Part shown: piece after piece, positions 9,282 to 12,945 of the stretch | Numbering within the stretch: position 1 is the first letter of the stretch | Layout: every line of letters begins with the position of its first letter | Source: a virus | DNA length: 27,168 nt | Strand: one strand, 5' to 3' | IMG/VR virus record: IMGVR_UViG_3300009151_000308 | Coordinates: 1-27,168 of that record | Program-made: the position numbers and the translations under genes | Notes under the pieces: model-generated | Databases searched by the model: none | What the model saw: only the letters and a program-made list of their open reading frames with translations | Told to the model about the DNA's origin: nothing

Positions 9282-9524
9282 TTAAAGTGCTTCACCTGGG
9301 CTGATTACTTCAAGGGCGCGAAGTAGCGTATTGATTTCTACGCCTAGCGCTTCGCACAGCGGGGGAAGAATGTCGATACTTGGCCTGGTTTCAAATGTGA
9401 AGTAACGGTACAAGTTACCTCGGTTGATACCAACGGCTACTGCGACTTCTTGCAGAGACTTATACTCAAGCTCTTTCATTCGTTCGCGTAGCCATTTCAT
9501 TCCGGTTGGTTGTTTCTTAGCCAT
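9282..9524 (-). CDS. Cro/XRE-family helix-turn-helix transcriptional regulator
   Basis: 80 residues, the usual size of a single-domain Cro-like protein. The HTH lies in residues 23-62: 'SLQEVAVAVGINRGNLYRYF' holds the turn and recognition helix, followed by 'SIDILPPLCEALGVEI', the standard fourth and fifth helices. The start is fixed by AAGGAG 9 bases before the ATG; it overlaps the end of the 9517 gene by 8 bases. It is the second gene after promoter P1, so it may control P1, P2 or both, which share nearly the same core. Targets are inferred, not shown. Confidence 0.85.
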   Translation of the reverse strand: MAKKQPTGMKWLRERMKELEYKSLQEVAVAVGINRGNLYRYFTFETRPSIDILPPLCEALGVEINTLLRALEVISPGEAL

Positions 9525-9912
9525 GGTGTACTAGCTCCTTTTCTTCTGCGCATTCGATGCAACCGCAGTCGCTGCACATTTTGTCGTATTCGTTAAAGAT
9601 GTGACTGAGTGTTGCTGATGTTAGGTTGCAGTTACGGTCAATGACTTTTGCTGCTTGGGTAGTTGTTTGTGCGAGTGCGTCTACAATTTCGCCGTCGATT
9701 GAATTCATGATGCTTGACGCTTGTGACGCTGCAACATCTGGCGGTAGGTAGTTCTCTAGGTGGCGTGTGATTGTGGTCTCGATAGCACCTAGTAGTTCAC
9801 GACCAAAGATAGTTTTAGCTTGGTCGTTAAAGTGGTCAATCATGATACTGCGTGTTACTTCGTTTTTTTCATACTCGCGCTTGAGTATTGCTTTTTGTAT
9901 TTGCTTGCACAT
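9517..9912 (-). CDS. Helical protein with C-terminal Cys knuckle, first gene of the P1 operon
   Basis: 131 residues from the ATG at 9912, which has GGAG at 5 bases. An upstream in-frame ATG at 9927 sits against the terminator U-tract and has no site, so it is rejected. The body is predicted helical with no membrane segment. The end carries a Cys cluster, 'MCSDCGCIECAEE' (C-x2-C-x-C-x2-C), near residues 113-120, which may bind zinc or an iron-sulphur cluster. It is not recognised. It lies directly after the structured leader and intrinsic terminator, so its expression from P1 must depend on readthrough or antitermination. Confidence 0.65.
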   Translation of the reverse strand: MCKQIQKAILKREYEKNEVTRSIMIDHFNDQAKTIFGRELLGAIETTITRHLENYLPPDVAASQASSIMNSIDGEIVDALAQTTTQAAKVIDRNCNLTSATLSHIFNEYDKMCSDCGCIECAEEKELVHHG

Positions 9913-9928
9913 GTTTACTCCAGACATG

Positions 9929-9960
9929 AAAAAAGCCCCGACGCTGTTTGCGTCAGAGCT
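9929..9960 (-). terminator. Intrinsic terminator between promoter P1 and its first gene
   Basis: On the minus strand an 11-pair stem (AGCTCTGACGC / GCGTCGGGGCT with two G-U pairs), loop AAACA, then TTTTTT. This is a classic rho-independent terminator. It ends the P1 leader and would also catch readthrough from the P2 operon. Confidence 0.9.
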
Positions 9961-10098
9961 GATTGCTTTGTATTTTGTCTTAAGGTTTGTCCGGTCACAT
10001 CCAAATCGTGACTGAGGTTATCCTCCGAGACTGGGAGTGATTATCAGATCAAATCGTAATAATCACTAGTTATCGGGTAAAGGTCTCCCAACCCGATA
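9929..10098 (-). ncRNA. Structured P1 leader RNA or stand-alone phage ncRNA (about 170 nt)
   Basis: The predicted transcript starts near 10097 and ends at the terminator. In order it can form: hairpin 1 (10098-10091 with 10078-10071, TATCGGGT/ACCCGATA); hairpin 2 (10066-10059 with 10044-10037, GTGATTAT/ATAATCAC); hairpin 3 (GAGG-ATAA-CCTC, 10025-10014); hairpin 4 (GTCAC/GTGAC, 10012-9994); and the terminator stem. The loop of hairpin 1 contains GGGAG (10089-10085), complementary to CUCCC at 10037-10033, so a pseudoknot is possible. No ORF with a ribosome binding site lies inside. It is either a small RNA or an attenuator/riboswitch-like leader. The folding is read from sequence; the function is unknown. 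Confidence 0.65.
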
Positions 10099-10103
10099 CA
10101 TCT

Positions 10104-10133
10104 ATTATACCACACATTTACAACGGCTTGCAA
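10104..10133 (-). promoter_or_regulatory. Promoter P1 (leftward)
   Basis: TTGCAA (10133-10128), an 18-base spacer and TATAAT (10109-10104) on the minus strand. The -10 region AATGTGTGG-TATAAT-AGATGTA is almost identical to P2. It lies immediately after the stop of the 10136 gene. Confidence 0.8.
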
Positions 10134-12590: not shown

Positions 12591-12830
12591 TTATTTACCT
12601 TCCTTGCATAAAGCGCAGTAACTGCTGTTGTGGCGTTGCCCGCGCATGTGAGCGATGGTTTCTTCTTCGCGAAGCTTTTGCTGAGCCTCGCCAGCAGTTC
12701 CAAGTGCTACAAGTATTGACATTGCTGTCTTTGCTGTAACACTGGCTGCCTTTTTTGCTGCTGCTTTAGCGTCAACACTTGGGGCGTCGACCTTAGAGCT
12801 ACTGGTGTTTCCGGTTTTTGCTTTTGACAT
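12591..12830 (-). CDS. Small Ala/Ser-rich protein with terminal Cys pair, first gene of the P2 operon
   Basis: 79 residues from ATG 12830, with AGGAG 7 bases upstream; the longer frame to 12950 runs through promoter P2 and is rejected. A low-complexity Lys/Ala/Ser head is followed by a mildly hydrophobic segment ('AMSILVALGTAGEA') and an end 'YCALCKEG', a lone C-x2-C pair that may join a metal site in a partner. It follows P2 and the 12853-12879 hairpin. Not recognised. Confidence 0.6.
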   Translation of the reverse strand: MSKAKTGNTSSSKVDAPSVDAKAAAKKAASVTAKTAMSILVALGTAGEAQQKLREEETIAHMRGQRHNSSYCALCKEGK

Positions 12831-12852
12831 GATTTTCTCCTGTAATGCAGAA

Positions 12853-12879
12853 ACCCCCAAAACACGGTATTTTGGGGGT
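12853..12879 (-). promoter_or_regulatory. Leader hairpin after promoter P2
   Basis: Ten-pair perfect stem ACCCCCAAAA / TTTTGGGGGT with a 7-base loop, then TTTCTGC on the minus strand. It lies between P2 and the first gene, the same arrangement as at P1 but with a weaker U-tract. It may be an attenuator or an mRNA 5'-end stabiliser. Confidence 0.6.
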
Positions 12880-12915
12880 ATTTTCAGGCAGCACAAATGC
12901 CGCTTGAATACTTCT

Positions 12916-12945
12916 ATTATAGCACACTTTGTGACCTTTATGCAA
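12916..12945 (-). promoter_or_regulatory. Promoter P2 (leftward) with an overlapping operator-like palindrome
   Basis: TTGCAT (12945-12940), an 18-base spacer and TATAAT (12921-12916), flanked by AAAGTGTGC and AGAAGTA, nearly the same as P1. A perfect inverted repeat CCTTTATG-caaca-CATAAAGG (12935-12955) covers the -35 box and is a plausible operator. Confidence 0.8.

Follow-up and report, generated by a model that had tools for sequence, protein, structure and literature searches.

A predicted structured RNA family, new to Rfam 15, between a promoter and an intrinsic terminator in related phage contigs

Comparison of five sequence variants of one phage locus identified a predicted structured RNA, here called unit A, that lies between a promoter and an intrinsic terminator at the head of an operon. 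Unit A constitutes an RNA family new to Rfam 15, its predicted structure being supported by compensatory base changes. The DNA analysed, referred to throughout as the window, is a 27,168-base virus record, probably a genome fragment, since several relatives measure 66-70 kb. Its encoded proteins include one that is WhiB-like and a DnaE-type polymerase, as read from the translations and, for DnaE, from its relatives. The best listed relatives of the DnaE and of a DUF932 protein were mostly actinobacterial phages, e.g. of Gordonia and Microbacterium, and we infer that the host is an actinobacterium.

For these phages, which are known here only as IMG/VR contigs, the analysis adds a covariation-supported RNA family with a searchable model and reveals a recurring layout of promoter, RNA, terminator and gene. 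Should readthrough be under the control of this RNA, the family would provide a handle on gene timing in hosts without Hfq, the usual small-RNA chaperone, which actinobacteria are generally not known to possess.

Layout of unit A in the window

Unit A lies on the minus strand. The first-pass annotation had proposed a near-consensus promoter here, and the elements were present as described: the putative promoter P1 (10104-10133) consists of TTGCAA (10133-10128), an 18-base spacer and TATAAT (10109-10104) with an extended -10 (TG). The motif alone is within chance, as eight promoter-like sites were observed in 10 kb compared to 16.1 expected from shuffles; the 39-base promoter segment is conserved among the five variants, with 64-92% identity. 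Transcription would start ~7 bases downstream of the -10 and yield an RNA of ~170 non-coding bases (9929-10098), where structured sequence had been claimed. Its predicted folding energy of -58.2 kcal/mol compares to a mean of -36.5 for shuffles (z = -5.69), none of the 200 being as good. With the terminator removed, the z-score was -3.91, again equalled by none of 200 shuffles.

The unit A RNAs of the five variants span 121-170 bases, and the predicted folds of all five showed three separate domains, namely a 5' hairpin, a core and a terminator. The 5' hairpin (10071-10098), which in the window has GGGU/ACCC within its stem and a GAGA loop, was predicted in every variant with variable sequence. 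An A+T-rich hairpin 2 (10036-10067) follows in the window variant alone; it was not predicted in V3, V4 or V5, and V2 has a single composite 5' helix instead. Comparative alignment placed the conserved core at 9977-10031, with the helices GUCU/AGAC, GAGG/CCUU and CC/GG plus a stem of variable sequence. The core is joined by an unconserved linker (9961-9976; 5-16 bases across variants) to the intrinsic terminator (9929-9960), which has the 11 pairs (stem 9960-9934) and the six T initially reported. The four successive hairpins first described were predicted for the window's own variant, but hairpin 2 did not hold as a family feature. A pseudoknot between GGGAG and CUCCC had also been suggested. 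CUCCC does sit at 10037-10033, where the 3' end of hairpin 2 overlaps it, but neither motif is found in the RNAs of V2-V5, and the pseudoknot was rejected for the family.

The leader had not been assigned to any nameable class, and database searches agreed. Rfam 15 returned no match at the gathering threshold in the window or in seven related loci; at a relaxed threshold, six sub-threshold matches were obtained, none near its own gathering score (the top one, MicC, reached 18.7 bits vs 90). Among 50,697 records of known phages, queried with V1, V4 and V5, there was no full-length match, the best for V5 being Lactobacillus phage LP65 (27% coverage, E 0.04). A literature search by title and the start of the abstract gave no description of this RNA among the matches listed. 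Modules of promoter and terminator, like small RNAs of phages, are already known kinds of element; the unit A RNA itself is unmatched in Rfam 15 and, at full length, in these phage records.

Variants and compensatory changes in the core

Three other contigs carry near-identical copies of the window (99.3-99.9% across 10-12 kb). Beyond these, unit A was recovered as five sequence variants, V1 being that of the window, in related phage contigs whose DnaE proteins are 59-91% identical (relative to the window, V2 91%, V5 73% over the best segment, V4 68% and V3 59%). V2 shares 79% identity with the window over unit A, and V3 and V4 were found by pattern scans of viral contigs. A covariance model built from V1-V4 was then run on 19 records reached via DnaE, the first gene or the RNA. 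Eight matched at E ≤10, six of them strongly (E 9e-19 or better), while the remaining 11, several of which are fragments, gave no match. Five of the strong records held variants already known, and the sixth supplied V5 (84 bits, E 9e-19). The two weak matches, G011 (E 4.7e-5) and G012 (E 2.2e-5), scored mainly from the terminator and were for that reason excluded from the family. Three pattern matches without the fold and the promoter-terminator setting were taken as chance: L031, L033 (the sole match in the scan of genome contigs) and L088, which sits inside an open frame. One contig, IMGVR_UViG_3300027749_000047 (135,953 bases; L001, L007, L009), contains two DnaE genes, 91% and 100% identical to that of the window, together with both RNA variants V2 and V1, and looks like two related phage genomes joined, probably by assembly.

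The structure tested comprises 26 pairs, drawn from core and terminator, and was scored on a five-variant MAFFT alignment. In this alignment 99.2% of cells pair, and sliding the partners by 1-3 columns reduced this to 27-44% (at most 43.8%). Compensatory changes in related phages had been named as a check on the stems, and they were found: eight of the 26 pairs are changed on both sides across the five sequences. The covariation score was 0.269 against a shuffle mean of 0.166 (0/500 shuffles as high); the count of further pair types was not above shuffles (474/500 as high). On the same alignment RNAalifold gave the same helices plus one extra pair, with 8/27 pairs doubly changed. The outer helix changes from U-A to C-G in V3, the GAGG/CCUU helix from G-C to A-U in V5, and further compensatory changes fall in four of the five inner-stem pairs and in two terminator pairs. 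The CC/GG helix is invariant, as is the internal-loop strand AUAA, with ACAAA near-invariant; the one broken cell is a change from G-U to A-C in V4. Four of the doubly changed pairs were already evident in V1-V4, and V5 added the other four. V5 forms all 26 pairs of the structure derived from V1-V4, having been found later with a model of that structure, and five sequences represent few independent events. The V5 change also speaks for the predicted long-range GAGG/CCUU helix over a local AGG-AUAA-CCU hairpin, because it would break the latter.

Identity between variants was 73-93% in the core and 78-100% in the terminator, compared to 17-53% in the linker and 29-69% in the 5' part. Corresponding values for the genes were 44-63% (first downstream), 52-69% (XRE) and 47-77% (335-aa). 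That the terminator is exactly conserved carries little weight, because a near-same terminator occurs in unrelated phage contexts. A search with the terminator sequence alone returned 15 stretches, ten of which were V1-V5; the other five fell into three contexts (L142, equal to L146; L143, close to L145; and L144), none with the core.

By energy the window core is not exceptional, so that the case for the core is comparative. As an isolated 55-base segment it gave z = -0.68, with 49/200 shuffles as good. Its minimum-energy structure departs from the consensus, although the centroid comes close to the consensus and the fold of the full-length RNA contains it. The isolated cores of V2-V5 gave z-scores of -2.09 to -3.00, those of V4 and V5 having slightly shifted inner pairs. 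Taken over the alignment, the core is a predicted structured RNA under evolutionary constraint, kept by compensating mutations while the adjoining genes changed: the first proteins of V1 and V2 are 47% identical, and V5 has an intervening extra ORF. Sequence comparison provides the promoter and terminator motifs, the fold, the compensatory changes, the conserved layout and, in predicted folds, the independence of core and terminator.

Downstream operon and modules of like layout

The first gene past the terminator (9517-9912, minus strand) has the Shine-Dalgarno (SD) sequence GGAG at 9921-9918 and encodes a fast-evolving protein predicted to be helical. The second (9282-9524, minus strand) encodes an XRE protein with a helix-turn-helix of the Cro/C1 type (HTH_26, E 7e-7) that is 58-73% identical between variants. 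A structured RNA between promoter and terminator, ahead of an operon that includes the XRE regulator, is supported as first proposed. In the window 16 bases separate the end of the terminator from the likely start codon, and in all five variants the start codon lies 10-17 bases past the T run. The likely start is ATG 9912 (9912-9910) and not ATG 9927, which adjoins the T run and whose counterpart in V2 is out of frame.

The gene order first gene, XRE, 335-aa, 326-aa and 119-aa protein is kept in V1-V5. Extra ORFs occur in V5, where a small one lies directly behind the RNA and ahead of the first-gene place, and in V3, behind the first gene. The first gene is the fastest-changing, with protein identities of 20-46% between variants: V1 and V2 share 46-47%, V1 and V4 29%, and V1 and V3 matched over just 34 residues (E 0.001). 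The first downstream protein of V5 had no blastp match at E 0.01, and its gene may be a different one in the same place, as perhaps is that of V3. The first downstream protein of the window had no Pfam or PHROG match, and its structure model was all helical (mean pLDDT 82.5, pTM 0.51).

The RNA seems not to be tied to the XRE regulator. At 14 loci of XRE-bearing relatives outside V1-V5, no convincing RNA match was found (best E 0.12), with four of these loci holding <700 bases upstream of XRE, too short to be sure, and with many being near-identical (L128/L130/L131/L132 and largely L129; L133/L134; L140/L141).

A second module, unit B (12830-12945, minus strand), was present in all five variants. 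It comprises TTGCAT-18-TATAAT, a 5' hairpin, a terminator, an SD and ATG, and its RNA is unrelated in sequence to that of unit A. The RNA of unit B in the window folded with z = -4.49. In its 5' hairpin 95.6% of cells pair, two pairs breaking in V5, and the single compensatory pair is no better than shuffles (203/500 as high). Units A and B have the promoter type and first transcribed bases in common (consensus TGTGSTATAATAGANGTAT, from which V3 A, V5 A and V5 B differ at one or a few places), as well as the order promoter, hairpin, terminator and SD. They differ in sequence and predicted structure, and past the first bases no common RNA element was seen by eye.

An automatic scan for promoter-terminator-SD modules gave 1, 2, 3, 2 and 2 modules in the records of V1-V5, covering 80 kb of the V2 record and 20 kb of the V5 record; the 10 first-order resampled controls made from every record contained none. 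Unit B in G001 was missed by the scan due to an interrupted T run. One further unit was observed in V3 and one in G018; the former, at L037 13495 (+), is a possible third promoter-leader-terminator-SD unit.

The two weakly matching records represent more distant phages (DnaE best segment 60% for G011 and 59% for G012). Each contains two modules arranged in this way, with RNA sequences that are different again. The G011 pair sits between DUF932 and the 335-aa gene, the G012 pair upstream of the latter gene, and these RNAs folded only slightly better than their shuffles (z from -1.4 to -2.2). By manual count, CTATT follows the T run within a base in eight of 14 modules: units A and B of V3 and V4, plus the four modules of G011 and G012.

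Possible roles of unit A

The initial proposal offered a phage small RNA or a conditional attenuator. The reading we favour, with confidence evenly balanced, treats unit A as a gene for a small RNA that also serves as a terminated leader, with a core that binds a protein or RNA polymerase and with readthrough feeding the operon. RNA polymerase would start at P1 and make an RNA of three domains, i.e. the 5' hairpin, the conserved core and the terminator hairpin. Most rounds would stop at the terminator and release a discrete RNA of ~120-170 bases, and a minority would read through, allowing expression of the first gene, the XRE regulator and the later genes. We infer transcription, the efficiency of termination, readthrough and binding by the core. 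With no more than 10-17 bases between the terminator and its first gene, the operon would depend on readthrough, whether constant or regulated.

The core would bind a protein or the polymerase rather than complementary RNA, because the constraint sits in helices and internal loops and not in an exposed seed. A search for 12-base complementary matches to the phages' own DNA gave three for V1 and two for V4 (0.9 expected from shuffles in each case) and no excess for V2, V3 and V5. With no consistent excess against this phage DNA, and with the conserved bases in helices and internal loops, an antisense seed is disfavoured. The order promoter, structured RNA, terminator and gene in unit A recalls type III toxin-antitoxin loci (ToxIN), which are arranged in this way. 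The unit A RNA differs from these in having no tandem repeats, just one 8-base direct repeat 48 bases apart, and the protein encoded downstream lacks a Pfam match and is predicted to be all-helical.

Against the small-RNA part of the favoured reading, the 10-17-base gap has no room for another promoter, and a gated leader fits equally. The main rival, if somewhat improbable, is that unit A serves as a gate of regulated promoter-proximal termination, at which a phage protein or the nascent RNA makes polymerase ignore the terminator. The timing of operon expression would then be set by a protein that is loaded onto the nascent RNA or at the promoter, in the manner of Q and AlpA, or by the RNA alone, in the manner of HK022 put. 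The two units of the window are alike in promoter type, first bases and the order of their parts, G011 and G012 carry two modules each upstream of the 335-aa gene, and the layout did not arise in the resampled controls. Since unit B and the units of these two distant relatives repeat the layout with different RNAs, a common cis role is indicated. Against regulated antitermination, units A and B have no common RNA element by eye past the first bases, and none of the ten window proteins scanned was Q-, N- or LoaP-like.

Precedents for such a gate are available. In lambda, pR'-tR' is an example of a Q-controlled promoter with a downstream intrinsic terminator. AlpA and Q act at promoters followed by an intrinsic terminator, according to PMC9371919, and unit A resembles these in its succession of promoter, short untranslated transcript, intrinsic terminator and operon. 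It differs in that no Q-like protein or binding element was found in the scanned part and in that its leader RNA is structurally conserved. The put RNAs of HK022, as presented in PMC9378689, are ~70 bases long with two stem-loops and lie downstream of early promoters. The likeness to putL and putR is that of a structured RNA near the start of early phage transcripts, before terminators, with two per genome. The two put elements are similar to each other, whereas units A and B are unrelated, and the predicted unit A core is a single interrupted helix. A further proposal, which we regard as doubtful, is that the core is an antitermination element of RNA alone or RNA plus one protein, put-like in modifying polymerase and unrelated to HK022 put, or else the first member of an orphan class with a ligand made by phage or host, that gates an early operon of viruses with putative actinobacterial hosts.

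A conditional attenuator or riboswitch had been among the first suggestions, and a metabolite riboswitch, in which the core is an aptamer whose ligand alters termination, would suit a compact core with (near-)invariant AUAA/ACAAA loop strands in covarying helices, directly before a terminator and an operon. We consider it unlikely. The seven terminator pairs tested had probabilities of 0.85-1.0 in all five variants, and blocking six bases of the terminator 3' arm cost 9.7-12.1 kcal/mol. In the predicted equilibrium folds of the five variants, the freed 5' arm was not used by the core or hairpin 1, both of which were unchanged, and no mutually exclusive terminator/antiterminator pairing occurred. 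In these predictions the core and terminator are independent domains without base competition, and a classic attenuator or two-state riboswitch is therefore not supported. Additionally, neither the length nor the sequence of the linker is constant, none of the downstream proteins scanned was recognised as metabolic, and Rfam gave no riboswitch match.

Least probable, to the point of being hard to credit, is a recombination or insulation cassette in which a promoter-terminator module shuffles accessory genes and blocks upstream transcripts, the RNA itself being functionless: units A and B both border fast-changing small genes, and long and short leader types seem to occur in G011 and G012 (L083-L086) in the opposite order to the window, but a mere cassette would not require a 55-base core with compensatory changes to lie between these two elements. 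The PeSL cassettes of T4-like phages reportedly combine a promoter and a stem-loop terminator beside variable genes. Unit A differs from these by the covarying RNA core between promoter and terminator, and just two units per variant were found, with three in V3. Outside the window, a further promoter-like site followed by similar, non-coding-looking sequence was observed in V1 and V2 (L050 5135 (+), L047 4773 (+)), and L044 3865 (+) has a similar site.
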